Of a DNA stretch of 64,000 nucleotides, positions 3,470-22,804 are shown one piece after another; positions within the stretch are counted from its first letter, which is position 1; every line of letters begins with the position of its first letter. Source of the DNA: Paraburkholderia ginsengiterrae (GTDB lineage Bacteria > Pseudomonadota > Gammaproteobacteria > Burkholderiales > Burkholderiaceae). Where the stretch lies: the NCBI RefSeq assembly GCF_001645125.1, contig NZ_LXKA01000371.1:186001-250000 (forward strand), read 5' to 3'. Under the pieces are notes generated by a model. That model did no database searches. It saw only the letters and a program-made list of their open reading frames with translations, and was not told where the DNA came from. A program made the translations under genes and the position numbers.

Positions 3470-5395
3470 CTACTTTTGCGGTTCGCTTTGGGACGGACTG
3501 CGCGCACCCACTTTTGCTTCGGCATCCGCCAAAGTCCCGGCGGCCCGCATCACGTCATTCCCCGCCTGGCCACCCGCATCATGCGCCGTTGGGTCCACGC
3601 GCGATTCCTGCGCGGCCGCCGCCCGCCCCTTGCTCAGTCCAGCCTGCTGCCACAGTATTTCCAGCGTGCGCCGCAAGCGCGCCGGCGTGACCGGCTTGTG
3701 AAGCACCGGAATCCCTTGCAACGAGAGCGCCGCCAACTCGGCCGACGCCATGTCGCCGGTGATCAGCAGCGTCACCGCATTGTCGTGGCCCGCACGCGCG
3801 AGCGCATTGCGCACGGCTGTCAGCGCCTGCGCGCCGGTGCGGTGATTCGCCAGCTGGTAGTCGCATAGCACGGCATCCGGCACGAAGCCGCCGGCGAGCG
3901 CCGCGAGCGCTTCGGCCTCGTCGCGTGCGCCTTGCACACTGCAACCCCAGCGCCCAAGCAGACTGACAAGGCCTTCGAGAATCGACGGTTCATCGTCGAT
4001 GCAGAGCACGCGCCGCCCTTGCGCGGACAATCCACCGACCACGGTTTCGTTCAGGCTGGCCACGATCGCACCGGCCTCGCCCGCCTGCACCGGAACGCGG
4101 AACACGGAGCCGCGGCCCGTCGCCGAACGTAATTGCAACTCGCCGCCAAGCAGTTCGACCAGACGCTTCACCGTCGGCAAACCGAGTCCGTGCCCCTGGC
4201 GCGCGTCGCGCTGCGGATTAGCGACCTGATAGAACTCTTCGAAAACGCGCTCATGCTCCTCGACTGGAATGCCGATGCCCGAATCGCGTACTTCGATAAA
4301 GCCGCCCGCCTGCCGGCCCGCGCGGCGAAAGCCCAGCCAGATCGCGCCCTCCTCGGTATAGCGCACCGCGTTCGACAACAGGTTGCTCAACACGCGTTCG
4401 AGCAGCACCGGATCGTCGTGCACGATCATCGCCGTCGGTGCGATGCGCAATGCCAGTCCTTTGGCGGCGGCCTGCGGACGGTACTGGCTGCCGACCCGTT
4501 CAAACAGTTCGGACAAGCGGAAATGCAGCCGTATCACCTGGGTCACGCCGCTTTCGAGCCGCGCCAGATCGAGCACCTGATTGAACAACTGGTTCAACGC
4601 CTCGACGTTGTAGACGATGTGCTCGGCTGTCTTCGCGTGTTGCACGGGCGTTGCCGCCGCGTCGTTGAGCGAGGCCGCGAGCAGGCCGATCGCATGCAGC
4701 GGTTGACGCAAATCGTGACTGGCGGCCGCGAAAAACCGCGTCTTGGCGAGGCTCGCTTCTTCGGCCAGCCGCTTTTGCGCGGCCAGCGATTCCGCCAGAT
4801 ATTGCTGATCGACACGCGCCTGCACGACCTGCCTGAACAGCTTGCGATAACTCAATGCGTAGACGTTGATCGCACAGAAGAAAAACGCGAGGACGATGGC
4901 GAGAATCGTACGGTCGAAGGTATGCGTGCCGAAATGCAGCACGATCGACGGAACCAGCAGAAACGGAATCGAAGTCGAAAAATTTAGCAGGTCGAAACCA
5001 TTCGACATGAACACGCCCGCAGCCAGCGTGACCAGCATGACCGTATGCAGGAGCGGCAAGTCGGTTTGCGGACTCTGAAACGCGAACCAGATCGCGAGGC
5101 CCGGCGCGCTGTACAGCAGCATGCCGCGCAGCGCGTGAAGATAGATCCAGCCGCGCGGCGAGACGAGCTGCGGATAGCGGCGGTTGCAGATCCACAGCGC
5201 GAGGCCGGCGCAATTGGCCGCGGCGTAGAAACCAAAGCACGCGATAAACAGGTGCGGCGACGGGATCGCCGGCCAATAGATCGCCACCAGCACGGCAATC
5301 GAAAACCAGTGCGAAAAGAAAGCGATCGGATCTTGCGCATACAGCACGCGCACCAGGTCTTCGTCGATGGCACGCTGGATCGGGTCGGCCCGCAT
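3470..5395 (-). CDS. Hybrid sensor histidine kinase with C-terminal receiver domain
   Basis: Inner-membrane sensor kinase of 641 residues. Residues about 20-185 hold six or so hydrophobic segments with little periplasmic domain, suggesting sensing at or in the membrane. A short coiled stretch leads to the HisKA box with H227 (ASHDLRQPLHA). The ATPase domain follows, with N-box (SNLLSNAVRY, about 337-346), G1 (RDSGIGIP) and G2 (GHGLGLPTVK). A receiver domain from about 462 has the DDE triad and phospho-acceptor D512 (CDYQLA). The Ala/Arg-rich tail lacks an Hpt domain. The ATG at 5395 is chosen because AAGGAGA lies just upstream; the frame is open further but without a better site. It is convergent with the LuxR-type regulator, its probable partner. 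Confidence 0.9.
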   Translation of the reverse strand: MRADPIQRAIDEDLVRVLYAQDPIAFFSHWFSIAVLVAIYWPAIPSPHLFIACFGFYAAANCAGLALWICNRRYPQLVSPRGWIYLHALRGMLLYSAPGLAIWFAFQSPQTDLPLLHTVMLVTLAAGVFMSNGFDLLNFSTSIPFLLVPSIVLHFGTHTFDRTILAIVLAFFFCAINVYALSYRKLFRQVVQARVDQQYLAESLAAQKRLAEEASLAKTRFFAAASHDLRQPLHAIGLLAASLNDAAATPVQHAKTAEHIVYNVEALNQLFNQVLDLARLESGVTQVIRLHFRLSELFERVGSQYRPQAAAKGLALRIAPTAMIVHDDPVLLERVLSNLLSNAVRYTEEGAIWLGFRRAGRQAGGFIEVRDSGIGIPVEEHERVFEEFYQVANPQRDARQGHGLGLPTVKRLVELLGGELQLRSATGRGSVFRVPVQAGEAGAIVASLNETVVGGLSAQGRRVLCIDDEPSILEGLVSLLGRWGCSVQGARDEAEALAALAGGFVPDAVLCDYQLANHRTGAQALTAVRNALARAGHDNAVTLLITGDMASAELAALSLQGIPVLHKPVTPARLRRTLEILWQQAGLSKGRAAAAQESRVDPTAHDAGGQAGNDVMRAAGTLADAEAKVGARSPSQSEPQK

Positions 5396-5436
5396 TGCGC
5401 GGTCTCCTTGAGTGTTCTGGTGCAGCCCCTTCTTTA

Positions 5437-5506
5437 TTGTCAGACGAATAAGACGCGTTTTATTGCCAGACGGCATTTTTTGCCGGATGGCGAATTTGCC
5501 AGATGG
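5437..5506. repeat. Four degenerate TTGCCRGAYGG repeats in a divergent promoter region
   Basis: Copies start at 5437 (TTGTCAGACG), 5463 (TTGCCAGACGG), 5480 (TTGCCGGATGG) and 5496 (TTGCCAGATGG), all in the same orientation, with steps of 26, 17 and 16 bases. They lie between the kinase gene (leftward) and the sigma-like gene (rightward). Direct repeats of this kind usually bind an oligomeric regulator; which protein binds is unknown. Confidence 0.55.
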
Positions 5507-5673
5507 TTTACCCGGCAGTTTACCCATCAGCTACCACTTAATCCATATAGGCGAAGCCGCCGCCGGAAACCATACTGATTTCACATTTCAGCGCGGCTTC
5601 AACCCCCGACATCCACACCCCGCCTGCCCACCAGGCTCACCGCGCTCCTTGCCTAACCCTTATGGAGGTTTTC

Positions 5674-6465
5674 ATGGGCGCAGTTCCCAGCCACGATTTC
5701 GTCCGCAATCTCGACGATGCGGTCCTGCCCGATTTGTGGCGCCGGCGTACCAGCCTGTCCGGCGACGAAATGGTCTCGATGGTCGAACTGGTCAAACGGG
5801 CGCTGCGGACCTATCACCCGCTCGAATTGCAGGCGCTTGGCGAGGACAAGGAAGAACTGGTCGCGCAGTTCATTTACGCGAAAGTGCTGCGTCTCGCGCC
5901 AGGCCACACGGAAACTCACGCCTGCGCCGACAGCGCGCCGTCCAACGGCTACGCAGTGTGCGCCTATTTCCGCCGCTATCTGATCGACTGCCTGCGCAGC
6001 GCGGGCCATCAGCGCAACGTGTCGATGGAAAACGAAGGCATGGCGCAGGAAATCGACCTGCACGCCCAGGCGCTCGAGGATCCGGTGGAAAGCGTGCTGC
6101 TGCAATACGGCCTCGACGAACAGCGCGTGCGGCTCTCGGCACGCGCTTTCATCGAAAGCCTCGACGAGCCGGAGCGGATCGTGCTCGCGGGCAGTCTCGG
6201 CTGGTGCTCCGAAGGCAAAGGCGGTTTGTCGGCAGTCGCGGCGCAACATCGGGTCCCCTCATATCACTATCGTGCCGTCAAACTCGGCGTCACCATGAAA
6301 AAGACGGCCGGCGCCGCTGAATTTTCCAATACCAAGATCGGCCGCTGGCTCACGGATGAACTCGGTATCGAGATTGCCGCCGACAATCGGGAGGCCATCC
6401 TGCTTGCGCTGAACCTGCTCGCCGCTGAGTCGAGCGACAGCGAGTTGAATGAAGTAGCCGCCTAA
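5674..6465 (+). CDS. Putative sigma-70/ECF-like regulatory protein
   Basis: A soluble 263-residue protein I cannot assign with certainty. Residues about 93-109 (YAVCAYFRRYLIDCLRS) resemble the core-binding helix of sigma region 2. Residues about 155-206 (a DEPERIVLAG helix, then SAVAAQHRVPSYHYRAVKLGV) resemble a region-4 helix-turn-helix. A shorter helical tail follows. A preceding ATG at 5662 is in frame, but GGAGG at 5664-5668 is spaced ideally for ATG 5674. It sits downstream of the repeats at 5437-5506 and 215 bp upstream of the large GMC fusion gene, which it might control. It could instead be a sigma-derived DNA-binding protein without sigma activity. Confidence 0.5.
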   Translation: MGAVPSHDFVRNLDDAVLPDLWRRRTSLSGDEMVSMVELVKRALRTYHPLELQALGEDKEELVAQFIYAKVLRLAPGHTETHACADSAPSNGYAVCAYFRRYLIDCLRSAGHQRNVSMENEGMAQEIDLHAQALEDPVESVLLQYGLDEQRVRLSARAFIESLDEPERIVLAGSLGWCSEGKGGLSAVAAQHRVPSYHYRAVKLGVTMKKTAGAAEFSNTKIGRWLTDELGIEIAADNREAILLALNLLAAESSDSELNEVAA

Positions 6466-6523
6466 AAGCACGCCTCGACGAGCACCCTCGCGCGCGCCGC
6501 TCGCTGGCGGTGATTGCGCCCGC

Positions 6524-6549
6524 CGTAGGCCCGGCACGCCGGGTCTACG
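6524..6549. terminator. Long hairpin after the sigma-like gene
   Basis: CGTAG-G-CCCGGC / GCCGGG-T-CTACG forms a stem of about 12 bp including one G-T pair and a tiny loop, 58 bases after the stop codon. No U-tract follows, so it may act as a partial terminator or RNA-stabilising element before the GMC gene. Confidence 0.45.
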
Positions 6550-6680
6550 CGCCGCATACGTCCCACCTTTGCTTGTTGCCGGACATTACCTAGGATACAA
6601 AAGCCGCAGCAGCACGCCGTCTTGCATCCGAAGTCCAGGTCTTCCCTTCCCTGTGTTCCGTTCCTGACGAGGTGGTCGTG

Positions 6681-9600
6681 ATGAACCGCTTATCGAGCGC
6701 CGTGACGGCAATCCAATCGCATTACGATGTGATCGTGGTGGGTTCAGGCTACGGCGGCGCAATTGCCGCCAGCCGCATGGCGCGTGCCGGCCGCCGCGTC
6801 TGCGTGCTCGAACGCGGGCGCGAATTCATGGCCGGCGAATTTCCCCGCACGCCGTTTCAAGGCACGGAGCAGGTGCAGTACAACACGGCCCTGGCGCACA
6901 TCGGCTCGCCGCTCGCACTGCTCGAAGTCCACGTGAACGAGGACGTGAATGCGGTGGTGGGCTGCGGTCTCGGAGGCACCTCGCTCATCAACGCGAACGT
7001 CGCACTCGAAGCCGACCCGCGCCTATGGGACGACGAACGCTGGCCCGCCGCGCTGCGTGCCGACAAGGCCGGCCGCGATCAGGGTTATGCGCGGGCGAGA
7101 GCCATGCTGCAACCGTCGCCGGTGCCTGACGACTATCCGGTCCTGCCGAAATTGCAGGCGCTCGAAATGTCGGCGCGGGGGCTGGAGTTGCACGCCCAAT
7201 TCAGCCGCCCGCCGATCACCGTCACCTTCACCGATGGGCCGAACGCCGCGGGCGTCGAGCAAAAGGCGTGCGTCGGCTGCGGCGACTGCAATTCGGGCTG
7301 CAACTACGACGCGAAGAATTCGACGCACATGAACTATCTGCCCGATGCCGTCGCGCACGGTGCGCAGATTTTCACGGGCGCGGCCGTGCATTCGGTGGTG
7401 CGCGACGCGACCACGCAGAAATGGACCGTGGGCTACCAGCTGGTTAGCCTCGGCCGCGAAAGCTACGGTGCGCCTGATCTGTTCGTCAGCGCGGATATCG
7501 TCATCGTGTCGGCCGGCACGATCGGATCGAGCGCCCTGCTGTTGCGCTCCCGTGAGCGGGGGCTGAGTGTCTCAGCCATGCTCGGCGAGCACTTCACCGG
7601 CAACGGCGACGTGCTCGCCTTCGCATACAACACCGAGCCTGTGATCAACGGCGTCGGCTGGGGTGCGCACGAACCGGGCGTGATCCCGCCGGTCGGCCCG
7701 ACCATCACCGGTCTCATCGATCACCGCGATACCGGCAATGTGAAGGATGGCTACGTAATCGAGGAAGGCTCGCTCGCCGGGGCGGTTGGCGCGGCGCTTG
7801 TCGGCGCGCTCGGCGCCGCCGCGCCGCTGGAAGGCGTCGATGTCACGCCGCGTTCGGCCGAACAGCAAGTCGCTTACGACGCCCGCGTGCTCGAGAGCTT
7901 CCTGCGCGGCCCCTATCATGGCGCGCTCAACCACACGCAAAGCTACCTCGTGATGGCCCACGACGACGAAAGCGGCCAGATCAGGGTGGACGGCAAAGGC
8001 CAGCCGCGCATCGTCTGGAAGAACGCCGGCACGCAGCCGGTTTTTCGGTCGATCGAGGAAGTCCTGAAGCAGGCGACCGTGGCCACCGGCGGCAAATACA
8101 TGCGTGATCCGATTTCCACGGATATTCTCGGCGACCGGACCGTTACCGTGCATCCGCTTGGCGGTTGCGGCATGGCCGACGACGCGGCACACGGCGTGAT
8201 CGACCACATGGGCCGCGTCTTCAGCGGCACCGAAGGCGCCGCGGTACACGACGGTTTGTACGTGATGGACGGCGCCGTCATGCCGATGTCGCTCGGCGTC
8301 AATCCGCTCCTGACGATTTCCGCGCTGGCGGAACGCAATTGCGCGCTGCTCGCGGCCGCGCATGGCTGGACCATCGACTATGTGGCGAAGGGCACCGCCG
8401 GCACGCCGCCGCCACAGAAGATCGGCCTGCGCTTCACGGAGACGATGGTCGGCACCTATACGCCGGCCGTGGCGGGCGATGCCGCCACCAGTCCAATCGA
8501 ATTCACGCTGACTGTCGAATCGGACGATCTCGCCGATATGCTCGGCAATCCGCAGCATCTGGCGCAAACGGCCGGCACGCTGACCTGCCCGGCATTGTCG
8601 GCGCAGCCCATGACGATCAGCAACGGGACCTTCAATCTGTTCGTGGTCGACGAATCGGACGTGGATGAGCGCAACATGACTTACCACATGACGCTCAATT
8701 CGACCGAAGGCAAGACCTACTATCTGAGCGGGAAAAAGATCATCACGCGCACGTCGCCGATCAATCTGTGGGAGCAGACCAACACGCTCTATACGGAGCT
8801 TCGCGAATCATCGCAAGCCGATGCCCCGTTGATCGGCAAGGCGACGCTGGTCGTCACCCCGGAAAATTTCCTCAAAGAGCAACGCACGCTCGAAGTCACC
8901 CACGCGCCGGATCTGGCGACGCGCCTCGAATGGACCTTGAAATTCGGCAAGTTTTTCGCGGGCGTGCTGTTCAACGAATACGGCGGTGTGGCCGCGCCCT
9001 TGCAGTTCTATAACCCCAATGCGCAACCGCGTTTGAAGCGCGCGCTGCGCGCACCCGCGCCCCAAGTCGTGTTCTTCGATACGCCCGACGGAACGAAGTT
9101 GAGGCTCACGCGCTTTCTCGACGCCGATCGCAAAGCGGCGCGCCCCGTTCTGCTGATTCACGGCTCCGGCGTATCGAGCCGGATCTTCTCCACCGACCTG
9201 ATCGCGACCAACCTTGTCGAGTATCTTTGCGCGTCCGGCTACGACGTGTGGCTCGTCGATCTGCGTGTCAGCATCGAAATGCCGAGCGTGCTGGTGCCGA
9301 CCAACGTCGACAAGGTAGCGCGCGAGGATATTCCGGCCGCCGTCGCCACCATCCGCAAGCTGACCGGCGCACCGGATATTCAGGTGCTCGCGCACTGCCT
9401 GGGCGGCCTGGCGTTCAGCATGTCGCTGATGTCCGGGCTCGAGGGCGTGCGTTCGGCGGTGATATCCCAGGTATCGGCGCATCCGGTGCCGGGCACGCTG
9501 GAGAAGATCAAGTGCGGGCTGCATATCCCTGACATCATGGAACATCTCGGCATACTCGATCTGACCGCCTATACGGAGCACAAATGCTGGCCGCAGAATC

Positions 9601-10088
9601 TGCTCGACGAAGCGCTCCCGTTCTATCCACTCAACCACAAGGAAGGCTGCGGCAGCCCGATCTGCCATCGCGCAACCTTCCTGTATGGCTTGCTCTACGA
9701 ACATGCGCAATTGAACGAGACGCTTCATGCGAATCTGCAGGAATTGCTCGGCGTGCACGACGTCGAAGTATTCAAGCATCTGGCCGCGATGGTGCGCGCG
9801 GGCAAAGTGGTCGACGCCGCGGGCAAGGATGTCTATCTGACCGGCGCGAACGGCATGAAAGGGCTGGAGGGCATGCGCCTGCCGATCGGGTTTATCCACG
9901 GCGAGAAGAACGAAACCTACCTGCCGATCAGCACGCAACGCACGTATGACATGCTGGTTGAGCGGTTCCCCGAACAGCCCTACGAACGGCATCTGATTCC
10001 GGACTACGGGCACATTGACTGTATCTTCGGCAAGAACGCCGCGGTGGATGTGTACCCGGTGATCGTGAAGTACCTGGACGCGCATTGA
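6681..10088 (+). CDS. GMC (cholesterol-oxidase-like) oxidoreductase fused to an alpha/beta hydrolase
   Basis: A two-enzyme fusion of 1135 residues. The N-terminal half is an FAD-dependent GMC oxidoreductase: dinucleotide-binding GSGYGG at 21-26, GCGLGGTSLIN near 94-104, and the C-terminal GMC segment HPLGGCGMADDA near residue 490. Within it, C197, C200, C203 and C207 form a CxxCxxCxxxC pattern. After a linker domain, a C-terminal alpha/beta hydrolase starts near 820 (LLIHGSG). Its nucleophile elbow reads AHCLGG with C906 instead of Ser, and the putative catalytic His is H1111 (YGHIDC). A sterol- or steroid-like hydroxy substrate, or a polyester precursor, is possible; the substrate is unknown. 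ATG 6681 follows GAGGTGG; an in-frame GTG at 6672 is less likely. No export signal is seen. Confidence 0.85.
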   Translation: MNRLSSAVTAIQSHYDVIVVGSGYGGAIAASRMARAGRRVCVLERGREFMAGEFPRTPFQGTEQVQYNTALAHIGSPLALLEVHVNEDVNAVVGCGLGGTSLINANVALEADPRLWDDERWPAALRADKAGRDQGYARARAMLQPSPVPDDYPVLPKLQALEMSARGLELHAQFSRPPITVTFTDGPNAAGVEQKACVGCGDCNSGCNYDAKNSTHMNYLPDAVAHGAQIFTGAAVHSVVRDATTQKWTVGYQLVSLGRESYGAPDLFVSADIVIVSAGTIGSSALLLRSRERGLSVSAMLGEHFTGNGDVLAFAYNTEPVINGVGWGAHEPGVIPPVGPTITGLIDHRDTGNVKDGYVIEEGSLAGAVGAALVGALGAAAPLEGVDVTPRSAEQQVAYDARVLESFLRGPYHGALNHTQSYLVMAHDDESGQIRVDGKGQPRIVWKNAGTQPVFRSIEEVLKQATVATGGKYMRDPISTDILGDRTVTVHPLGGCGMADDAAHGVIDHMGRVFSGTEGAAVHDGLYVMDGAVMPMSLGVNPLLTISALAERNCALLAAAHGWTIDYVAKGTAGTPPPQKIGLRFTETMVGTYTPAVAGDAATSPIEFTLTVESDDLADMLGNPQHLAQTAGTLTCPALSAQPMTISNGTFNLFVVDESDVDERNMTYHMTLNSTEGKTYYLSGKKIITRTSPINLWEQTNTLYTELRESSQADAPLIGKATLVVTPENFLKEQRTLEVTHAPDLATRLEWTLKFGKFFAGVLFNEYGGVAAPLQFYNPNAQPRLKRALRAPAPQVVFFDTPDGTKLRLTRFLDADRKAARPVLLIHGSGVSSRIFSTDLIATNLVEYLCASGYDVWLVDLRVSIEMPSVLVPTNVDKVAREDIPAAVATIRKLTGAPDIQVLAHCLGGLAFSMSLMSGLEGVRSAVISQVSAHPVPGTLEKIKCGLHIPDIMEHLGILDLTAYTEHKCWPQNLLDEALPFYPLNHKEGCGSPICHRATFLYGLLYEHAQLNETLHANLQELLGVHDVEVFKHLAAMVRAGKVVDAAGKDVYLTGANGMKGLEGMRLPIGFIHGEKNETYLPISTQRTYDMLVERFPEQPYERHLIPDYGHIDCIFGKNAAVDVYPVIVKYLDAH

Positions 10089-12630: not shown

Positions 12631-12642
12631 TTGTATATACCG
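12631..12642. promoter_or_regulatory. GTATATAC palindrome, operator candidate 1
   Basis: TTGTATATACCG contains the perfect palindrome GTATATAC at 12633-12640, in the divergent promoter between the oxygenase operon and the ABC cluster. HutC/GntR-family regulators bind AT-centred palindromes of this kind. The HutC-type gene at 16038 is the natural candidate. Confidence 0.55.
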
Positions 12643-12729
12643 CCAAAAGCGCGTTCGCAAGTTGCGCTGCGATACTTCACGTCAGGGCTTTTCTCTACTT
12701 GCGGGTTTATTTGTTTCGCGCGAAAACTG

Positions 12730-12741
12730 CGGTATATACTG
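12730..12741. promoter_or_regulatory. GTATATAC palindrome, operator candidate 2
   Basis: CGGTATATACTG holds a second GTATATAC at 12732-12739, 99 bases from the first and in inverted orientation with respect to the flanking GCGG. It lies about 75 bases before the binding-protein start codon and could overlap that gene's promoter. Confidence 0.55.
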
Positions 12742-12815
12742 CCCCGCATGAATCGCGCCGAAGCACGCTGGTGCATCAGATTCGCGCGACACCGCTTTGC
12801 CAACCGGAGAATCCC

Positions 12816-13643
12816 ATGAGCATCCTTGCAGGCTGGAAGTGTCGTTTGGTCATGCTGGCGTTGTGCGCGGCAAGCGTCACCGCCCACGCGGAAGACCAGC
12901 TCGCCAAAGTGAAGAAAGCCGGCGAACTGGTGGTCGGCACCGAGATGCAGTTCGCACCGTTCGACTTCCTTGAAAACGGCCAGCAAGCGGGTTTCAACAA
13001 GGATCTGTTCGCCGAGGTCGGCAAGGAAATGGGCGTGAAGGTGCGCTTTATCGATCTGCCGTGGCCCAGCGTGCTGCCGGGCCTGGAAGCCGGCAAGTTC
13101 GACATGGTGGGCGGCCCGCTCACCGTCACCAAGGCGCGCATGGAGCGCTATACGTACACCCTGCCGATCGCGGACGCGACCGACGCGCTGCTCAAGCGCG
13201 CGAACGATTCTTCCGTGAAGCAATCGGCGGATATCGCGGGCAAGACAGTCGGTGCAGGCAAGGGTTCGGCCCAGCTCGACCAGTTGAAGAGCTACGTTGC
13301 GACGTTGCCGAAACCGCCTGAAATCCGCGAATACGTCGATAACAATCAGGCTTACGCCGACCTCGCCGCCGGGCGGATCGCGGCCGTGGCGAACTCCATG
13401 ACCAACATCGCGTATGTGGCGAAGCAGCGTCCGGAGACGTTCGCCGTGGTGCAGCCGCCGTTCGGCGCCAAGGTGTACTTCGCGTACTGCCTGCGAAAAG
13501 ACGCGGACAGCAAGCCACTCGCCGACGCGTTTAACGCCGCGCTCGTCAAGATGCACAACGACGGACGCCTCGCCACGTTGCAGAAGAAATGGTTCGGAGT
13601 CGCAATGGATGCGCCGACCACCATGCCCACGCCGAACTATTGA
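12816..13643 (+). CDS. Amino-acid-type ABC transporter substrate-binding protein
   Basis: Periplasmic binding protein of family 3 (SBP_bac_3), 275 residues. A Sec signal peptide covers about 1-22 (hydrophobic core VMLALCAASV, cut after AHA). The mature part begins with LAKVKKAGELVVGTEMQFAPFDFLENGQQAGFNKDL in conserved family order. ATG 12816 is set by GGAGA upstream; longer in-frame starts lack a ribosome site and would mask the signal peptide. First gene of a binding protein-permease-permease-ATPase-HutC run, consistent with uptake of a polar amino acid or imidazole-like compound. The specificity is not readable. Confidence 0.9.
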   Translation: MSILAGWKCRLVMLALCAASVTAHAEDQLAKVKKAGELVVGTEMQFAPFDFLENGQQAGFNKDLFAEVGKEMGVKVRFIDLPWPSVLPGLEAGKFDMVGGPLTVTKARMERYTYTLPIADATDALLKRANDSSVKQSADIAGKTVGAGKGSAQLDQLKSYVATLPKPPEIREYVDNNQAYADLAAGRIAAVANSMTNIAYVAKQRPETFAVVQPPFGAKVYFAYCLRKDADSKPLADAFNAALVKMHNDGRLATLQKKWFGVAMDAPTTMPTPNY

Positions 13644-13763
13644 CCGCTCGATGTTCCCACACGCCACTGTTCCGATCCCGGTGCGCGTGGGTTGATGCAT
13701 GCGATGCGGTGCGGCCAGCACAACGCGCCGCATCGCCCTCCCCGCTCTAGCGAGTGCGACGTT

Positions 13764-14414
13764 ATGTTCAGCACAACCGTTTTCATCCAGGGCTTGCCGC
13801 TGCTGCTGCACGCGGCGCTTGCCACGATCGGCATTTCGCTGACGGGTCTGCTGATCGGTTTCTTCGTCGCGATTGGCGTATGCTCGGCGCGGCTGTCGCC
13901 CAATCGCGCGGCGCGCATGGCCGGCGGCGCTTACGTGTTCTTCTTTCGCGGCGTGCCGATGCTGGTGCAGCTGCTGCTGGTGTACTACCTGCTGCCGTTC
14001 GCGGGCATCAACGTGTCGCCGGTCGTGGCGGCGATCAGCGCCGTGTCGCTGTGCTCCGCTTCGTATATCGCTGAAATCCTGCGCGGCGGCTTTCTCAGCA
14101 TTCCGCCGGGCCATCTGGAAGCCGCGCGCATGCTCGGGCTCTCGCCGTTCGACATGCTGCGCCGCATTCTCGTGCCGCAAGCGTTTCGCATGACGCTGCC
14201 TTCGCTGGTCAATGAGATGGTGCTGCTCATCAAGGCCTCGTCGCTCATTTCCGTGGTGGGCGTGGCAGAATTGACACGCACTGCGCAGAATATCGCCGCC
14301 AGCACGTATCGGCCGCTCGAGGCGTACCTCGCGGCCGGGCTGATTTACTTCGTGATCTGCGGTGCGCTCGCGCTCGTCGCGCACGCCGCCGAATATCGCT
14401 TGCAGCACGCCTGA
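13764..14414 (+). CDS. Amino-acid ABC transporter permease (HisM/GlnP family)
   Basis: Inner-membrane permease of 216 residues with about five helices. The coupling EAA-type loop is HLEAARMLGLSPFDMLRRILVPQAFRM, near 115-140. The conserved YVFFFRGVPMLVQLLLVYY segment is typical of polar-amino-acid permeases. ATG 13764 is preferred because the protein then begins just before helix 1. It pairs with the permease at 14434. Confidence 0.9.
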   Translation: MFSTTVFIQGLPLLLHAALATIGISLTGLLIGFFVAIGVCSARLSPNRAARMAGGAYVFFFRGVPMLVQLLLVYYLLPFAGINVSPVVAAISAVSLCSASYIAEILRGGFLSIPPGHLEAARMLGLSPFDMLRRILVPQAFRMTLPSLVNEMVLLIKASSLISVVGVAELTRTAQNIAASTYRPLEAYLAAGLIYFVICGALALVAHAAEYRLQHA

Positions 14415-14433
14415 CCGACTCTGGGCCTCCGTC

Positions 14434-15096
14434 ATGCAAACGCTCGACCCCACCGTCATCACCCACAACCTTCAGCCGATCGCCGCGGGCCTTGCCACGA
14501 CGCTCGGCACCTGGGCCGCGGGCGTCGCGATCGGCATGCTGCTCGGCTTTCTGATCGCCGTGCTGCAACTTTTTTGCGGACGCTGGGTGCGCGGCGTATT
14601 GCGCGTCTATATCGAACTGTTTCGCGGCACGCCGTTTCTCGTGCAGCTCTTTCTGCTGTATTACGGCGGGCCATCCATCGGCCTCACGCTCGAACCCATG
14701 ACAGCCGGCGTGCTCGGGCTGGGCCTGTATGGCAGCGCGTATTTCGCGGAGGCCTTCCGCTCCGGGTTTCAGTCGGTGCCACCGGGTCATCTCGAAGCGG
14801 CGTCGTGTCTCGGGCTCACGCGCTGGCAGGCTGTCTTGCGCATTCAAGTGCCGCAAATGCTCGTGCTGATCGTGCCCGCGCTGACCAATCTGATCATCGT
14901 CCTGAGCAAGGAAACCGCCGTGCTGTCGATTGTCACCGTGCCTGAACTCACGTTCGTGCTGACCGGCATCGGTTCGGCCACGTTTGCTTTCGTCGAAACG
15001 CTGCTGGTGCTGTGCGTGTGCTATCTCGCCCTGGTCGAGCTGACCTCGCGCGCAGGCATGTGGGCCGAAAGCCGCATCGCGCGCTTCATGGCATGA
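14434..15096 (+). CDS. Amino-acid ABC transporter permease (HisQ/GlnP family)
   Basis: Second inner-membrane permease of the cluster, 220 residues. It shows the family segment [22 protein letters not shown] and the EAA loop [23 protein letters not shown]. It starts 19 bp after the stop of the first permease and ends 19 bp before the ATPase gene, indicating one transcript. The two permeases probably form a heterodimer. Confidence 0.9.
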
Positions 15097-15115
15097 ACGG
15101 AACCTGGACCCTCTT

Positions 15116-15985
15116 ATGAACGCCATCGCCGACATGCCCTCCTCCGCGTCCCACGCTGCGGCCGACGCCTCTCCCACTGCACCGCTGATCGACGTGCGCG
15201 GCCTGCGCAAACACTTCGGCGAAGTCGAAGTGCTGCGCGGCGTCGACCTGCAGATCGCGCGCTCCGAAGTGGTGTGCATCATCGGCCCGTCAGGCTCGGG
15301 CAAAAGCACGCTGCTGCGCTGCCTTGCCGCGCTCGAAACCTACGATCAGGGCGACGTGCGCATCGAAGGCGAACTGCTCGGTTACAGCGAGCGCAACGGC
15401 AAGCGCGTGCGGGCTTCGCAAAGCGAGATCAATCGCGTGCGGCGCAACGTCGGCATGGTGTTTCAGCAGTTCAATCTCTGGCCGCATATGACAGCGCTCG
15501 GCAACGTGATGGAATCCCTGCTGCGCGTGCGGCATCTGTCGCGCGACGAAGCGCGCCGCCGCGCCAACGCGATGCTCGAGACGGTTGGTCTCGCGCACAA
15601 AGGCGATGCATATCCGGCTAAACTCTCGGGCGGCCAGCAGCAGCGCGTGGCGATCGCGCGAGCGCTCGCCATGGAGCCGCACATCATGCTGTTCGACGAG
15701 CCCACCTCGGCGCTCGATCCGGAGCTGGTCGGCGAGGTGCTGCAAGTGATGAAGCAGCTTGCCCGCGACGGCATGACCATGGCCGTGGTCACGCACGAAA
15801 TGGGTTTCGCCGCGCAGGTCGCGGACAAGGTCATGTTCATCGATCAAGGCCGTATCGCCGTGCAGGGCAAACCGCGCGACGTCTTTCACGATGCGGGCCA
15901 GCCGCGTTTGCGGCAGTTCCTGCAAAATTACTTCGACCGCAACGCCTTCTGGACGCGCGGCCCCGACGACACGCAACCACTATGA
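15116..15985 (+). CDS. Amino-acid ABC transporter ATP-binding protein (HisP/GlnQ family)
   Basis: Cytoplasmic ATPase of 289 residues driving the import system. Walker A is GPSGSGKST (about 59-67), the Q-loop [12 protein letters not shown], the ABC signature [15 protein letters not shown], Walker [13 protein letters not shown] and the switch His in VVTHEMGFA. It has an N-terminal Ala/Pro-rich extension of about 22 residues and a C-terminal tail of about 15 beyond the typical GlnQ length. It lies 52 bp before the HutC-type regulator and is probably in the same operon. Confidence 0.93.
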
Positions 15986-16037
15986 ACACACGCCGTTTCC
16001 CGCCTGCCGCGCGCGGACGATAGCGCAAGAGCCACCG

Positions 16038-16844
16038 ATGTCCTCCTCCGTTCGCCATCAGCCTCACGACAAACAGCCCGCCGCCGCAGCGGCGGCGAAG
16101 ACCGCGCGCGCGGCCGACGAAGCGCCGGCCGCGCTCTACGAGCAGGTCAAGAACCATATTCGCCGGATCATCGAATCGGGCGAGCGCCGGGCGGGTGACC
16201 GGCTGCCCTCCGAACAGGACCTGGTCACCGCCCTCGGCATGTCGCGCATGACGGTCAATCGCGCGCTGCGCGAACTTGCTGACGCGGGGCTCGTGACGCG
16301 CGTGGCCGGCGTGGGGACCTTCGTCGCGCAAAGCAAGCCGCAATCTACCTTGCTGATGATCGCCCATATCGGCGACGAGATCCGCTCGCGCGGCCACGAA
16401 TACCGCTATGACACGGTCCTGTTGCAACGCGAAACGGCGTCGCTGATTGTGTCGAATGCGTTAGGCCTCGCGCCGGGCACGTCGGTCTTTCACGTGATTT
16501 GCGTGCATCGGGAAAATGGCTTGCCGGTCCAGCTCGAGGACCGCTACGTGAATCCCGCCATCGCGCCGGATTTTTTGCGGCAGGATTTTTCGGTGGTGAG
16601 ACCGTCGGAATATCTGTATGAGTTCGTGCCGGCTCATGACGTCGAGCACGTGGTCGATGCCAGCCTGCCGACGCACGCCGAAGCCGATCTGCTCGAGATC
16701 CGCCCCGAGGAGCCGTGCCTGACGCTGGTGCGCCGCACGTGGACGAGCGGCGTGGCGGTGACGTTCGCGCGTTTCGTGCATCCGGGATCGCGCTACCGGC
16801 TCGGTTGCCGATTTTCCCCGGATACGTCGCAGCGCCAGGGTTGA
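16038..16844 (+). CDS. HutC-type GntR transcriptional regulator, first cluster
   Basis: DNA-binding repressor of 268 residues. An N-terminal Ala-rich extension of about 30 residues precedes the winged helix (YEQVKNHIRRIIESG, GDRLPSEQDLVTALGMSRMTVNRALREL). The C-terminal UTRA effector domain includes HIGDEIRSRGH and LEDRYVNPAIAPDFL, the latter very close to HutC of histidine-utilisation loci. HutC proteins sense urocanate or related imidazoles; the effector here is unknown. It closes the first transport cluster and probably acts on the GTATATAC sites at 12631 and 12730. The ATG at 16038 keeps the wHTH complete. Confidence 0.9.
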   Translation: MSSSVRHQPHDKQPAAAAAAKTARAADEAPAALYEQVKNHIRRIIESGERRAGDRLPSEQDLVTALGMSRMTVNRALRELADAGLVTRVAGVGTFVAQSKPQSTLLMIAHIGDEIRSRGHEYRYDTVLLQRETASLIVSNALGLAPGTSVFHVICVHRENGLPVQLEDRYVNPAIAPDFLRQDFSVVRPSEYLYEFVPAHDVEHVVDASLPTHAEADLLEIRPEEPCLTLVRRTWTSGVAVTFARFVHPGSRYRLGCRFSPDTSQRQG

Positions 16845-16889: not shown

Positions 16890-17651
16890 CTAGACGTTGC
16901 CGGCCAGATGGAATCGCGACGCCGGGTGCCACAACTGCACCGACGTCGCCACCTCGTCGCCCACCCAAGTGCGGCGCCATAGCTGCAGACACGGCTCGCC
17001 GATTTCCATCATCAGATGCCGCCGCACGTAGGCGTCGGGCTTTTGCGCGTAGATGCGAAACTCCGCGCGCTGAATCGGCGCGAGCCGCACCATGTAGTGA
17101 TTCGGCGTCTCCACGGTGAAGTCCTGCTTCAGGTAATCGGGAAACACCTTCGGATTGACGTAGCGGTCTTCGTACTGGATCGGCTCGTCTTCCTCACTGT
17201 GCACGATGCACGAGTGAAACGCCGGGCCGCTGGCGAGGCCCAGCGCTTCGAGCGCCTGCGGGTCGTCGCTCGGCTCGAGCGTCAGCACGCGCGCCGAATG
17301 GCGATGACCGCGCGCGGCGATTTCGTCGGCGATATTGCGGATTTCCAGTACCGTCGATTCGTAGCGCCGGGGCGCGACGAACGTACCCGAACCCTGCACG
17401 CGCGTCAGCACGCGTTCGGACGTCAATTCGCGCAGCGCACGCGACACGGTCATGCGCGCCACGCCGAACTCCTTGACGAGTTCGGTTTCGGACGGGATCA
17501 AACCGCCCGGTTTCCAGTCCCCTTCGCTGATTCGCCGGATCACGTAGCGTTTGATCTGCTCATAGGCGGGCGTCGCCTTCGCAGGTGTCTCCCGGCTGCG
17601 ATCAGGCGAATCCTGCATCTCTACGGTTTGCGCGTTTATCGTTGTATTCAC
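16890..17651 (-). CDS. HutC-type GntR transcriptional regulator, second cluster
   Basis: DNA-binding protein of 253 residues, paralogous in layout to the regulator ending 46 bp away on the other strand. The winged helix covers about 28-90 (YEQIKRYVIRRISEGDW, LIPSETELVKEFGVARMTVSRALREL). The UTRA domain has RNIADEIAARGHRHSA and YEDRYVNPKVFPDYLKQDF, again HutC-like. The start is a GTG at 17651 with GAGG upstream; an ATG at 17618 is an alternative. It is the last gene of the leftward operon encoding an ABC importer and a histidine-ammonia-lyase homologue, which it likely controls through the TTGTATAGACAA-type sites near 22.8-22.98 kb. Confidence 0.9.
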   Translation of the reverse strand: MNTTINAQTVEMQDSPDRSRETPAKATPAYEQIKRYVIRRISEGDWKPGGLIPSETELVKEFGVARMTVSRALRELTSERVLTRVQGSGTFVAPRRYESTVLEIRNIADEIAARGHRHSARVLTLEPSDDPQALEALGLASGPAFHSCIVHSEEDEPIQYEDRYVNPKVFPDYLKQDFTVETPNHYMVRLAPIQRAEFRIYAQKPDAYVRRHLMMEIGEPCLQLWRRTWVGDEVATSVQLWHPASRFHLAGNV

Positions 17652-17768: not shown

Positions 17769-19430
17769 TCATGCCGTGTGGGCGGCGGCTTGCCCGTCGT
17801 TGACTGGCTTATTCGCGGCCACGCTCGCGGCTGGGCGAACGTTGCCTGCGGCGGCCAGATGCGTGACCGAAGCGCGTGCAACCAGCGCCGCGCCTTCATC
17901 GGACGTGACCGGCCGGGGGCCCATATTACCGGGGTTTGGCAACGGCGGCGGCGCTTCGTCGGCGATCATGCGAAATGCGAGGCTCATGTCGTCCGCGAGC
18001 GGCCGGTCGTCGCGATAGGTCGGCACGACGCCGCGCACGCGTTGCCGGAGCGTCTCGGTGTGTGGGGCGCGCGGCGCGTCGATACGCTGCAGGTCGTAGG
18101 CTTGCGCCGCCGCCAGCAATTCGATCGCCACGATACGCCCGGCGTTGTCGACGATTTCCAGCGCCTTGATCGCGGCGGGCGTGGCGTGACACAGGTGATC
18201 TTCCTGCAAGCCCGACGTGATGCCGCCGTCGAGACTGGCCGGCAAGGCGAGACGCCGGTTCTGCGCGACCAGCGAGGCCGCCGTGTACTGCGCGATCATG
18301 AAACCGGAACAGGCGCCGCCCGGCTCCGCGAGGAACGCCGGCAAACCGCTGACCAGCGGATTGACGAGGCGGTCGAGGCGCCGCTCGGCCATCGCGGCAA
18401 CCTGGGCGATCGCGGTCGCGAGACTGTCCATGGCCAGCGCGATGGAGGTGCCCACCGCGTGTGCCTGCGAATACACGCGCGGTTCTTCCGGCGTGCCGGC
18501 GACGATCGGGTTATCGGTTATCGAGGCCAGTTCGCGATTGACCACATCGGCGGTCGCCGCCAATACGTCGCGCGCGGCGCCGTGAACGTGCGGAATGGTC
18601 CGCATGCTGAGCGGGTCCTGGGTGCGCTGTCCGACCACCGCGGCCAGAATGCGGCTGCCCGCCAGCGCCGTGCGCATGCGCTCGCCGACCAGATTCAGGC
18701 CCGGCGAAATGCGCAAGGCCAGCGAATCTTCGTCGAAAGCCGCGAGCTGGCCACGCAGATTCTCGAAGCTCATCGCGGCAACCATATCGGTCCAGTCGAG
18801 CAGGCGTTCGGAACGCGCCAACGCAAGAGCGGCGAGACCGGTCACGCACGGCGTGCCATTGACGAGGCTCAGCCCCTCCTTGGCTTCGAGCACCAGCGGT
18901 TCGAGCCCGAGCCGCTGCAACGCGTCGCGCCCCTTGAGCCGCTCGCCACGATAGCGCGCATAACCCTCGCCGATGCAGACTAGCGAGATATGCGCCATAT
19001 GGCTCAGATAACCGACCGAGCCGAATGCCGGCACTTCCGGCAAACAGTCCGCGTTGAGCAAGGCCACAAGACGGTCCGCGACTTCGAGGCGAACACCCGA
19101 GTGACCGTGCGCGAAATTGTTGACGGCCGCGGCCATGATTGCGCGCGTTTCGGCGACACCGAGGGGCACGCCGACGCCCACCGCGTGGCTCAACAGAATG
19201 TTGCGCGACAACGCGCGCTGTTCGGCCGGGGAGACGACCACGTCGCACAGCGCGCCGACGCCGGTATTCACGCCATACGCGCGAATGCCGCGCTCGACGA
19301 TCTGTTCGACCAGCACACGCGCCGCCGCAATGCGTGCGCGCGCGTCGGCGGAAAGCTCGAGCGGCTCGCCGGCGGCGACCGCCGCCACCTGGGCCCAGTC
19401 GAGAGGACGGTTGGAACGGATCACGGCCAT
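17769..19430 (-). CDS. Histidine/aromatic amino-acid lyase family protein lacking the MIO triad
   Basis: A 553-residue member of the HAL/PAL superfamily. Family landmarks are YGVNTG (52-57), N76 and SHAVG (81-85), GSVG (137-140), LVNGT (189-193) and QDPLSMR (271-277). Active HAL/PAL enzymes have Ala-Ser-Gly after GSVG, which cyclises to the MIO electrophile. Here GSVG runs straight into YLSHMAH, a clean in-frame loss of three residues. The residue equal to HutH Tyr280 is L274 and that equal to Glu414 appears to be Q390, while R277 is kept. A Pro/Ala-rich tail of about 50 residues follows. It is unlikely to be an ordinary histidase; MIO-independent relatives such as ergothionase are known. It shares an operon with an ABC importer (38 bp upstream) and a HutC-type gene. 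Confidence 0.85.
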   Translation of the reverse strand: MAVIRSNRPLDWAQVAAVAAGEPLELSADARARIAAARVLVEQIVERGIRAYGVNTGVGALCDVVVSPAEQRALSRNILLSHAVGVGVPLGVAETRAIMAAAVNNFAHGHSGVRLEVADRLVALLNADCLPEVPAFGSVGYLSHMAHISLVCIGEGYARYRGERLKGRDALQRLGLEPLVLEAKEGLSLVNGTPCVTGLAALALARSERLLDWTDMVAAMSFENLRGQLAAFDEDSLALRISPGLNLVGERMRTALAGSRILAAVVGQRTQDPLSMRTIPHVHGAARDVLAATADVVNRELASITDNPIVAGTPEEPRVYSQAHAVGTSIALAMDSLATAIAQVAAMAERRLDRLVNPLVSGLPAFLAEPGGACSGFMIAQYTAASLVAQNRRLALPASLDGGITSGLQEDHLCHATPAAIKALEIVDNAGRIVAIELLAAAQAYDLQRIDAPRAPHTETLRQRVRGVVPTYRDDRPLADDMSLAFRMIADEAPPPLPNPGNMGPRPVTSDEGAALVARASVTHLAAAGNVRPAASVAANKPVNDGQAAAHTA

Positions 19431-19468: not shown

Positions 19469-20260
19469 TCAGTTGGTCGTGCGGTCCTGGTGGCTCGACA
19501 CGAACTGGCGGAAACGATCCGACTTGCATTCGACGAACACCTCGTCGGGCGTGCCGTCGGCTTCCACCTGCCCCTGGTGCAGGAACATCACGCGATTCGA
19601 CACATGGCGCGCGAAACCCATCTCGTGCGTGACGACCAGCATGGTGCGGCCTTCTTCGGCGAGCGAGCGCATCACGCGCAGCACTTCGCCCACCAGTTCG
19701 GGATCGAGCGCCGAGGTCGGCTCGTCGAACAGCATGACTTTCGGATGCATGGCGAGCGCGCGCGCAATCGCCACGCGTTGCTGCTGGCCGCCCGACAGAT
19801 GCGCCGGATAGTGGCCGCGCTTTTCCGCCAGACCGACTTTCGCCAGCAGCGCTTCGGCCTCTTCGATCGACTCGGCGCGGCTGCGTTTTTGCACGCGCAT
19901 TGGCCCTTCGATCAGGTTTTCCAGCACCGTCATGTGCGACCAGAGATTGAAGTTCTGGAACACCATGCCGAGTTGCGAGCGGACCCGGTCCACCTGGCGG
20001 CGATCGCTCGGTTGCAGCTTGCCGTCGCCGCGGCGCTTCATTTTCAGCTCTTCGCCGCCGAGCGCGACCGAGCCGTCATCCGGCGTTTCAAGCAGGTTCA
20101 GGCAGCGCAGGAACGTGCTTTTGCCCGACCCGCTCGCGCCGAGAATCGAGATCACGTCGCCTTGATGAGCATCGAGCGAAATGCCCTTGAGCACGTGATG
20201 TTCGCCAAACGATTTGTGAATGTTCTTGACCGACAGTGCAACGGGAGCCGTAGCGTTCAT
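19469..20260 (-). CDS. Amino-acid ABC transporter ATP-binding protein (HisP family)
   Basis: Cytoplasmic ATPase of 263 residues. Walker [11 protein letters not shown]-loop [12 protein letters not shown], signature [15 protein letters not shown], Walker [13 protein letters not shown] and VVTHEMGFA are all present. The ATG at 20260 has GGAGA at ideal spacing; an ATG six codons earlier (20278) has none. It is a close paralogue of the ATPase at 15116 and belongs to the second, leftward cluster between the permease and lyase genes. Confidence 0.93.
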
Positions 20261-20295
20261 GAGATTCTCCAGATTCATCCAGATGGGGCGGCCGT

Positions 20296-21051
20296 TCAGG
20301 GCGTGGCGCGGCGTGCTTCGGTAGTCGGCGACACCGGGCGGCTTGCCGGGGCCGTGGCGGGCGCTGCGCGCAGATGGCGTGACAGGCGCGTTTCGAGCAT
20401 GCCGAGCAGCCGCACGATGACGAAATTCAGGAACAGGTAGATCAGCGCGGCGCAGATGAACACTTCCGTCGTGCGATAGGTCTGCTGGATGATCTGCTGC
20501 GCAACACCGGTCACTTCCCACACGGTGACGAGACTCGCGAGCGCTGTCGATTTGACGAGCAGCACGGCTTCAGTCGAATACGCCGGCAGGCACTGACGCA
20601 ATGCGATCGGACCGATCACACGGCGCAGCAGCGCGAAGCCCGACAGCCCGATCGAATACCCTGCTTCGATCTGGCCGACCGGCACCGCCATCAAGCCGCC
20701 GCGAATGATCTCAGCGGTATATCCCGCCGTGCACAGCGCGAGCGACAGCACCGCGCACATGTAGGGTTCGCGCAGCACCGGCCACAGGAAGCTCTCGCGG
20801 ATTACGCCGAACTGGCCCATGCCGTAGTACACCAGGAACATCTGGATCAGCAGCGGCGAGCCGCGGAACACGAGAATATAGGCACGCGCAAAGCGGTTCG
20901 GCAGCCAGTGCGGCGACACCCGCATCGTGACGATCACGAGCGAGAGCAAGCCGCCGAGAATCAGTGAACAGAAGAACAGCCCGAGCGTGGTCGGCACGGC
21001 CGCGAGCAGCTGCTTGAGCGTGTCGAACAGAAAATCGAAGTCGAAGTTCAT
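20296..21051 (-). CDS. Amino-acid ABC transporter permease (HisM family)
   Basis: Inner-membrane permease of 251 residues: about five helices, the segment [20 protein letters not shown] and a coupling loop [22 protein letters not shown]. The C-terminus has an Ala/Pro-rich cytoplasmic tail. The ATG at 21051 lacks a clear ribosome site but lies 10 bp after the stop of the preceding permease, so translation is probably coupled. An ATG eight codons earlier would overlap that stop. Confidence 0.9.
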
Positions 21052-21061
21052 GATAGCCGCG

Positions 21062-21784
21062 TCAGTTGCGCGCAAAGTTGCGCTTGAAGGACCGGCCCAC
21101 GCGCGCTTCGGCGCGGTTGAAGACCCGGTTCGAGATGCTGGTCATGACCAGATAGAGCGCCCCGCCCACCACGAAGAACGTGAAGTACTGGTGCGTGGAA
21201 CCCGCCGCCACCTGGCTTGCGCGCAGCAATTCGGCGAGCCCCGTGACGGAGATCAGCGCCGAATCCTTCAGGCTCAATTGCCAGACGTTGCCGATGCCGG
21301 GCAACGCAAAACGCAGCACTTGCGGAATCAGGATTCGGCGCGCCATGGTCAGGGTCGGCATGCCGATCGAGCGCGCGGCCTCGAGTTCGCCGCGCGACAC
21401 CGCGAGCACCGCTGCACGGTACACCTCGGCCTGATACGCGCCGGAGATCATGCCGACCGCGAGCGCACCGATCACGAACGGCGGCACGCCGACAAAACCT
21501 TCCGCGCCGAACCATTGGCCGACGGTGGTCACGAGCGTGGAGCCGCCGAAGTAAAACAGATAGATGACGAGCAACTCGGGCACGCCGCGAAATACCGTGG
21601 TGTAGATGTCGCCGATCACGCGCAGCGTGCGATACCGCGACAGTTTGGCCGCCGCGATCAGCGCGCCGAACACGGCGCCGACCGCGAGCGCCGCCAGCGT
21701 CAGCACAACGGTCATCAATGCCGCGAGCAGCAGCACGCCGCCCCAGCCTTCCGGCCCGAAGCCGAGCATCTCTATCAGAGCCAT
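21062..21784 (-). CDS. Amino-acid ABC transporter permease (HisQ family)
   Basis: Inner-membrane permease of 240 residues. Family features are DIYTTVFRGVPELLVIYLFYFGG and the coupling loop ELEAARSIGMPTLTMARRILIPQ. GAGGG precedes the ATG. It lies 90 bp after the binding-protein gene and 10 bp before the second permease, within the six-gene leftward operon. Confidence 0.9.
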   Translation of the reverse strand: MALIEMLGFGPEGWGGVLLLAALMTVVLTLAALAVGAVFGALIAAAKLSRYRTLRVIGDIYTTVFRGVPELLVIYLFYFGGSTLVTTVGQWFGAEGFVGVPPFVIGALAVGMISGAYQAEVYRAAVLAVSRGELEAARSIGMPTLTMARRILIPQVLRFALPGIGNVWQLSLKDSALISVTGLAELLRASQVAAGSTHQYFTFFVVGGALYLVMTSISNRVFNRAEARVGRSFKRNFARN

Positions 21785-21874: not shown

Positions 21875-22735
21875 TCAAGGCGTCACGTCGGTCTTGAACC
21901 ACTTGTTGGAGAGCTTCTTGACGGTGCCGTCGGCGAGCGCCGCGGTGATCGCGGTATCGAACTTCGCTTTCAGATCGGCGTCCTGCTTGCGGAACGCCAG
22001 GCCTTCGCCCGGTCCCCAGATCGGACCGCCAATCTTCGGGCCGGCCATGACGATCGAGGCGGTTTCCTTCTTGTCGATGTTGGCGGCGTAATAGGTCACG
22101 TCGTCGAACGAGGCATCGATGCGGCCGTTGGCCAGGTCCAGATCGCGCTCCGGCGAAGTCTTGTACACGCGGATCGTGGCGATGTCCTTGAAGCCGTCAT
22201 TGATGAACTTGGTGTAGACCGTGCCGGACTGAATGCCGATGGTCTTGCCCTTCAACTGCTTGCGCAGTGCATCGACGGTCGGCTGATCGGCCTTGGGGTC
22301 GCCTGACAGCTTGACGACGCTCGCGCCCGGCGCCGCCTTGGGCAGCACCTTCGCGTCGGACACGGCGAACGTGGCCGGCGTGGCCGCGTACGGCTTCGAA
22401 AACGCGATGATCTTTTCACGCTCCGGCGTGATCGAGATCGCATCCATCAGGACATCGAATTTGCCGGCTTGCAGACCGGGAATCATGCCGTCCCAGTCCT
22501 GCGCGACGAGGTTGCATTGCAGCTTGATGCGCTCGCACAGGTTCGCGACCAGTTCAGGTTCGAAGCCGCCCAGCTTGCCGCCCGGCAACGTCAGATTCCA
22601 CGGGGCGTAACCGCCTTCGAGCGCGATCGTCACCGTCTTCCAGTCTTTGGCCTGCGCCGGTACTGCGAAAATGGCCGCGGCGCCGAGAACGGCGCCGATC
22701 AATGCTTGTGCTGCCGTCGTGCGCTTCACTTTCAC
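21875..22735 (-). CDS. Amino-acid-type ABC substrate-binding protein, second cluster
   Basis: Periplasmic SBP_bac_3 protein of 286 residues with a Sec signal (cut after VPAQA, about 29). The mature protein shows the family order IALEGGYAPWNLT, GGFEPELVANLCERI, DWDGMIPGLQAGKFDVLMDAISITPER. It ends with LADGTVKKLSNKWFKTDVTP. AGGAG precedes the ATG. First gene of the lyase/HutC operon, so its ligand is probably the lyase substrate. Basic-amino-acid and opine binders are the nearest recognisable types. Confidence 0.9.
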   Translation of the reverse strand: MKVKRTTAAQALIGAVLGAAAIFAVPAQAKDWKTVTIALEGGYAPWNLTLPGGKLGGFEPELVANLCERIKLQCNLVAQDWDGMIPGLQAGKFDVLMDAISITPEREKIIAFSKPYAATPATFAVSDAKVLPKAAPGASVVKLSGDPKADQPTVDALRKQLKGKTIGIQSGTVYTKFINDGFKDIATIRVYKTSPERDLDLANGRIDASFDDVTYYAANIDKKETASIVMAGPKIGGPIWGPGEGLAFRKQDADLKAKFDTAITAALADGTVKKLSNKWFKTDVTP

Positions 22736-22792: not shown

Positions 22793-22804
22793 TTGTATAG
22801 ACAA
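22793..22804. promoter_or_regulatory. TTGTATAGACAA, HutC-type operator candidate
   Basis: TTGTATAGACAA is an inverted repeat (TTGT/ACAA with TATAGA centre) 58 bases upstream of the binding-protein start at 22735. It resembles HutC-family operators and probably serves the HutC-type protein encoded at the end of this operon. Confidence 0.6.

Follow-up and report, generated by a model that had tools for sequence, protein, structure and literature searches.

A histidine ammonia-lyase relative without the MIO triad in Paraburkholderia ginsengiterrae: a probable hercynine trimethylamine-lyase

A gene of Paraburkholderia ginsengiterrae that is currently annotated as encoding a histidine-degrading enzyme probably has another function. 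Sequence comparison and genomic context point to a cofactor-free member of the histidine ammonia-lyase (HAL) family, which would split hercynine (Nα,Nα,Nα-trimethyl-L-histidine, or histidine betaine) into trimethylamine and urocanate; the substrate, the reaction, and the roles of single residues are those that we infer for this lyase. The gene lies in the window, the whole 64,000-nucleotide stretch of contig NZ_LXKA01000371.1 that was analyzed, within an apparent operon (Table 1). The family of enzymes without MIO to which its product belongs is real, old, and widespread, and its members are probably hercynine trimethylamine-lyases. No report of a hercynine lyase was found among the matches listed in the open-access literature, and we do not claim priority.

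The lyase gene and its operon

The reading frame of 553 amino acids is unbroken, and the product matches PF00221 along the whole domain (512.1 bits with a cut-off of 27.3; profile positions 1-465 of 466), in agreement with the original prediction of an intact gene for a protein of the HAL/PAL family. It is 91% identical to its counterpart in P. xenovorans LB400. A pseudogene was considered and rejected, since the frame is unbroken and 30 of 30 loci (the window gene and 29 relatives) are alike. The protein stays below the cut-offs of the HutH profiles TIGR01225 (469.8 with a cut-off of 539.15) and NF006871 (472.7 with a cut-off of 524), and the Ala-Ser-Gly triad, which forms MIO in HutH, is absent. 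By sequence, it resembles ergothionase as a HAL-family protein without the MIO triad; in place of the ergothionase-type gap and Lys, a combination that is our own unpublished criterion, it has a different gap and Tyr382. It carries the marks of a hut-linked MIO-less clade, namely the motif GS[VA]GY[LI]xH without the triad, Leu at the place of HutH Tyr280, and a supported position within that clade.

Table 1. Features of the lyase operon in the window
Feature	Positions	Strand	Evidence or remark
HutC-like GntR/UTRA regulator, last gene of apparent operon	16890..17651	-	TIGR02018, 278.3 bits (above cut-off 220)
MIO-less HAL-family lyase (proposed hercynine trimethylamine-lyase)	17769..19430	-	PF00221, 512 bits; no triad; start codon matches orthologues
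GSVGYLSH codons, residues 137-144 (HutH: GSVG-ASG-D)	18999..19022	-	Translation and alignment, counted from 19430
ABC transporter ATPase (HisP-like)	19469..20278	-	PF00005; best NCBIfam HisP, 365.6 bits (below cut-off 466)
ABC permease (ArtM/HisM type)	20296..21075	-	PF00528
ABC permease (HisQ type)	21062..21784	-	PF00528
Periplasmic solute-binding protein	21875..22735	-	PF00497
HutC-type operator-like site TGTATAGACA	22794..22803	.	One mismatch; ~60 bp upstream of binding-protein gene

The genes for the binding protein, the two permeases, the ATPase, the lyase, and the HutC-like regulator are all on the minus strand and are presumably co-transcribed. Both the importer and the regulator expected beside the lyase are present by profile matches. 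The ATPase gene probably starts at an internal ATG (20278) of a longer open reading frame (19469-20521). The nearest solved relatives of the binding protein are octopine- and nopaline-binding proteins (215 bits for 5ore, and 213 bits), compared with 101.5 bits for HisJ (1hpb). Opines are Nα-substituted amino acids.

A second importer module (12632-16844, plus strand) is convergent with the lyase operon and consists of a binding protein, two permeases, an ATPase, and a HutC-like regulator, with no enzyme; 23 of 87 loci have a similar module behind the lyase operon. The window also encodes (6672-10088, plus strand) a protein of 1138 residues whose first half contains GMC oxidoreductase domains, while the second half has no Pfam match at 1e-8 and looks, by eye, like an alpha/beta hydrolase.

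Loss of the MIO triad

The lyase reads GSVG-YLSHMAH where Pseudomonas putida HutH reads GSVG-ASG-DLAPLAH. Every locus classified carries the motif without the triad: 30 of 30 in the family search, 23 of 23 in the phylum search, and 80 of 80 in the scan of named genomes. These 133 loci are not independent families, since the family and phylum sets both include the window gene and have a few genomes in common, and the MIO-site loop in them was assessed from alignments alone. Since all these loci share it, the motif is neither misread nor a sequencing error, and the alignments with P. putida HutH and with the relatives gave no sign of a triad present but misread. The loss is old, fixed, and family-wide, and the Asp that follows the triad in HutH is also replaced, by Tyr. 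The predicted absence of the triad is thus borne out; the exact loss of nine bases proposed with it does not hold as a literal event, given this old family-wide state and the Tyr in place of Asp.

Tyr52, His82, Asn191, Gln271, Arg277, and Glu410 are conserved in all 33 rows of the clade (the window protein and 32 proteins picked for diversity out of 175 such reading frames) and likewise in all 22 HutH rows. As predicted, Leu274 stands at the place of HutH Tyr280, with Leu in 33/33 clade rows versus Tyr in 22/22 HutH rows. Tyr382 is present in 33/33 clade rows, and HutH residue 329 aligns with Ala325 (pairwise with 1eb4, which has Ala at 329; 1b8f has Phe). The alignment with HutH and ergothionase, which upheld the triad loss and Leu274, overturned the supposed loss of Glu414: this residue aligns not with Q390 but with Glu410 (LQEDH), conserved in 33/33 clade rows, and Q390 aligns with a different HutH glutamate (SENK) and is variable within the clade.

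A HAL relative with GSVGYLGPEGHLALV (L238, genome G361) has no triad and has Tyr as in the lyase; it keeps Tyr280 and forms a long branch outside the lyase clade.

Phylogeny and distribution

In a tree of 72 rows, one branch (support 100) sets off the 33 MIO-less rows and another (support 100) the 22 canonical HutH rows, with the ergothionase-like rows elsewhere; the tree was built by a quick method with the triad columns removed, its supports are SH-aLRT values only, and it carries a long-branch warning that includes the Treponema ergothionase. The proteobacterial MIO-less clade sits beside canonical HutH in this free tree. Forcing the 33 rows together with seven ergothionase-like rows lowers the likelihood by 13.4 log units, and the AU test does not reject this arrangement (p-AU 0.08); with this value for a single common MIO-less clade, separate losses of MIO in the lyase clade and in the ergothionase group are, on the sequence data, favoured only.

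Matches at E ≤ 1e-100 are present in 67 of the 300 genomes of the Burkholderiaceae sample (four of them partial), and 23 of the 398 genomes of the phylum sample have a match at E ≤ 1e-140. A further MIO-lacking group (L194, L195, L196, and L197) has the motif GT[VL]GEGDL and forms a separate long branch. One candidate at a contig end (L004) was rejected as an additional lyase, being the first 75 residues of a canonical HutH with 100% identity.

Link to urocanate degradation

For the comparison of gene neighbourhoods, flanking sequence of up to 8-9 kb was taken at 99 loci, of which 7 lie on plasmids, 80 come from named genomes, and 12 are among the 23 of the phylum search. At 75% identity, they form 21 clusters, the largest of which contains 56 loci, nearly all from Burkholderia and Paraburkholderia. 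A hut gene, mostly the hutC-like regulator, is nearby in 91 of the 99 loci (16 clusters), and a hut catabolic enzyme in 29 loci (13 clusters). In the Burkholderia and Paraburkholderia loci, the MIO-less gene is in its own importer operon without hutH. Hut operons containing it occur in Aureimonas, Caballeronia-type, pseudomonad-type, and other genomes; G603 is termed pseudomonad-type on the basis of its canonical HutH, which scores 863.6 bits with the P. putida enzyme.

In particular, the MIO-less gene occupies the place of hutH in a full hut operon of Aureimonas AU20, as seen on its plasmid. In eight Caballeronia-type loci, the importer and lyase genes are followed by hutU-hutD-hutI-hutF-hutG. 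The hutU directly behind the MIO-less gene is the sole urocanase in three of the Caballeronia-type genomes searched (G689, G690, and G691), and the fourth (G688) has a second, divergent urocanase. These HutU neighbours are canonical (70-73% to HutU of the window genome, and 92% in Trinickia). On Rhizobium leguminosarum p2, the MIO-less gene adjoins hutC, hutF, hutI, and a canonical hutH. Finally, in genome G601 the MIO-less gene is part of a hut operon, and none of the three PF00221 genes encodes a canonical HutH, so that the MIO-less protein could serve histidine there. Neither hut genes nor betaine importers were found within these flanks in five of the 21 clusters, from gammaproteobacterial MAGs (L128, L135/L136, and L138) and from L207 and L212.

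The window genome has one match to the urocanase family (PF01175), adjoining its canonical HutH, and it also encodes HutI. Among the Burkholderiaceae, urocanase is present in 64 of 67 genomes with the lyase versus 153 of 233 without it (Fisher p 1.4e-7), an association inflated by kinship and by reduced genomes that lack both genes. A Caballeronia locus (L192) contains a divergent urocanase (5172-6911, 43% to canonical HutU) beside a histidase relative with Ala-Ser-Gly (8373-9986); the pair also adjoins amino-acid importer genes and perhaps belongs to a modified-histidine pathway.

Betaine-type importers and HutC-type operators

The importer that accompanies the lyase is an amino-acid ABC system in the window and likewise in Burkholderia, Paraburkholderia, Caballeronia, and some alphaproteobacteria, and one of the OpuAC glycine-betaine type in other rhizobia and in pseudomonad-type genomes. 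In Sinorhizobium meliloti Ak57 (pSymB, L039), OpuAC-type ABC genes precede the MIO-less gene; in Aureimonas, an OpuAC gene follows the hut operon on the opposite strand; and in two gammaproteobacterial loci (L205 and L206), a BCCT carrier gene lies between hutU and the lyase gene. With an identity threshold of 40%, betaine importers, either glycine-betaine ABC or BCCT, were found in 7 of 21 clusters versus 0 of 18 canonical hutH loci; three of the latter show no more than a weak ATPase match (37-38%). As controls, these 18 loci were taken from 16 genomes, all carrying the MIO-less gene elsewhere, and hutH in a shared operon was excluded; the reference proteins for the importer and hut counts were drawn from loci of the lyase clade itself. 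As amino-acid ABC genes are also found beside some canonical hutH genes (L268 and L199), only the betaine-type importers discriminate. Together with the hut operons of other genomes, they narrow the substrate.

According to one report, HutC targets TGTA-N2-TACA and is released by urocanate (PMC12977541). Two matches to TGTATATACA with at most one mismatch lie in the window, one at 22794-22803 and one at 12632-12641, both directly preceding the first gene of an importer operon; 0.13 occurrences were expected, and two were reached in 1 of 100 shuffles. A longer pattern with two mismatches gave an extra match at an unrelated place (38083). Of the 99 loci, 90, many of them close kin, have a binding-protein gene on the lyase strand. 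In 64 of these 90, a site with at most two mismatches to TTGTATATACAA lies within 300 bp upstream of that gene, compared with 2.1% of 1,800 random stretches from the same loci.

Proposed function and alternative explanations

In HAL, MIO turns the primary amine of the substrate into a leaving group. A quaternary ammonium is already a leaving group and is unable to attack MIO, which would make the triad dispensable. In the proposed hercynine lyase, Tyr52, His82, Asn191, Gln271, Arg277, and Glu410 would serve substrate binding and removal of the β-proton, and Tyr141 and Leu274 may reshape the MIO site. Hercynine would be taken up through the neighbouring importer, and the urocanate formed would enter the ordinary HutU-HutI pathway. 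Urocanate would also act as an inducer by freeing the HutC-type repressor, so that the operon would be self-inducing.

Urocanate as the product is suggested by the MIO-less gene in the place of hutH or upstream of the sole canonical hutU, and a betaine as the substrate by the OpuAC-type and BCCT importers nearby and by the similarity of the binding protein to opine-binding proteins. The canonical HutH also encoded in the window genome argues against histidine deamination. With MIO lost, the other catalytic-site residues kept, a link to HutU, and importers of betaine or opine type, Nα-trimethylhistidine is the simplest substrate. The S. meliloti importer HutXWV reportedly takes up histidine, proline, and betaines, which fits histidine betaine. 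The hut and betaine-importer context in other genomes gives good support to two further points of the original prediction: that the enzyme is functional with a different reaction, and that histidine betaine could be its substrate.

Urocanate and an amine could also arise from a different histidine derivative substituted at Nα, for example the opine histopine or Nα,Nα-dimethylhistidine. The urocanate-linked neighbourhood fits such a substrate equally, and the solved opine-binding relatives of the window binding protein agree with it; this reading is nevertheless unlikely, since the glycine-betaine ABC and BCCT carriers that accompany the lyase in other lineages suggest a quaternary ammonium. 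Slightly less probable is an ergothionase, which would convert ergothioneine to trimethylamine and thiourocanate. It would be a MIO-less enzyme of the same family with the same Leu at the Tyr280 place, the AU test leaves one common clade unrejected (p = 0.08), and an ergothionase is known from a Burkholderia (PMC13405746). However, the free tree puts the lyase beside HutH and apart from the Treponema enzyme, and the two differ in the gap (three residues in the lyase, one in Treponema), in Asn191 versus Ser, and in Tyr382 versus Lys. Elsewhere, the neighbouring canonical hutU-hutI-hutF-hutG genes handle urocanate, and the window genome has a single match to the urocanase family (PF01175), to which thiourocanate hydratase also belongs.

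It is likewise improbable that the protein still deaminates histidine without MIO or assists HutH. HutH is indeed the nearest clade, the neighbourhood and the operators are of hut type, the G601 operon lacks a canonical HutH, and S. meliloti hutX and hutH2 mutants are said to show 30% less growth on histidine as the nitrogen source. On the other hand, the window genome has a canonical HutH, the Burkholderia and Paraburkholderia loci form their own importer operon without hutH, and known HAL enzymes need MIO.

If the preferred assignment of hercynine trimethylamine-lyase is true, the second "histidase" of the Pseudomonas hut operons, dispensable on histidine, acquires a function, and histidine betaine has a possible sink in soil. 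This betaine is depleted in biocrust soil water, with no uptake by the isolates tested (PMC4595634). Annotation as hutH would then be no proof of a histidase, since genes of this name may not encode histidases and may release trimethylamine. It would also illustrate that a built-in cofactor can turn dispensable once the substrate supplies its own leaving group. A broader proposal, which we make tentatively and hold slightly more open to doubt than to belief, is that cofactor-free hercynine lyases are widespread but hidden in hut operons under the name of histidase. They could form an undescribed route from histidine betaine to urocanate and trimethylamine and explain the dispensable hutH1-type genes, MIO having been lost in HAL-type enzymes more than once, always with a shift to a quaternary-amine substrate.

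Comparison with known systems

The MIO-less relative of known structure is a lyase that releases trimethylamine, and ergothionase is also known from a Burkholderia (PMC13405746), Burkholderia sp. HME13. The Treponema denticola ergothionase (PDB 6s7j/6s7q) resembles the lyase as a HAL-family protein without the MIO triad, with Leu at the Tyr280 place and with equivalents of Glu414, Arg283, and Gln277 retained, and the two would share the elimination of trimethylamine from a histidine-type betaine. It differs in the motif SSIGEGDITT, one residue shorter than HutH, whereas the lyase clade is three shorter; in Ser at the place of HutH Asn195, kept as Asn191 in the lyase; and in Lys at the Tyr382 place, also seen in 5/5 relatives examined out of the 10 in the tree. 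It is placed apart in the free tree (a common clade is not rejected, p 0.08), and the lyase clade is tied to canonical hut genes. Scores of up to 288 bits with histidine ammonia-lyases, compared with 184 for ergothionase, place the lyase closer to the former. As a precedent, ergothionase serves mechanistically, but the lyase is outside its group in the free tree and has Tyr instead of Lys.

Several proteobacterial relatives of the Treponema ergothionase (L193, L242/L248, L243, L244, and L205 at 4561-5994) carry GSIGAAD or similar, and their residue at the Tyr382 place is Lys. In L248 and L205, the adjoining genes encode OpuAC glycine-betaine binding proteins and ornithine-cyclodeaminase-like proteins, types that were absent among the neighbours tested at L193 and L243. 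A Labrys protein with GSIGAADLAP matches the Treponema ergothionase with 285 bits and HutH with only 229; relatives of this kind were found in 0 of 300 Burkholderiaceae genomes at E ≤ 1e-85, a search without a positive control and thus uninformative.

HutH of P. putida (PDB 1b8f/1gkm) represents the nearest clade and shares most active-site residues, the hut neighbourhood, and HutC-type control. The lyase differs from it in lacking Ala-Ser-Gly, in Tyr141 in place of the Asp that follows the triad, and in the changes of Tyr280 to Leu274 and of Phe329 to Ala325 (pairwise). By gene order alone, the lyase gene resembles hutH1 of P. fluorescens SBW25: in the pseudomonad-type loci L201 and L202, the order is hutU, permease, OpuAC-type ABC, MIO-less gene, and canonical hutH. 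Similarly, we take S. meliloti hutH2 to be a counterpart of the MIO-less gene, again matched by gene order.
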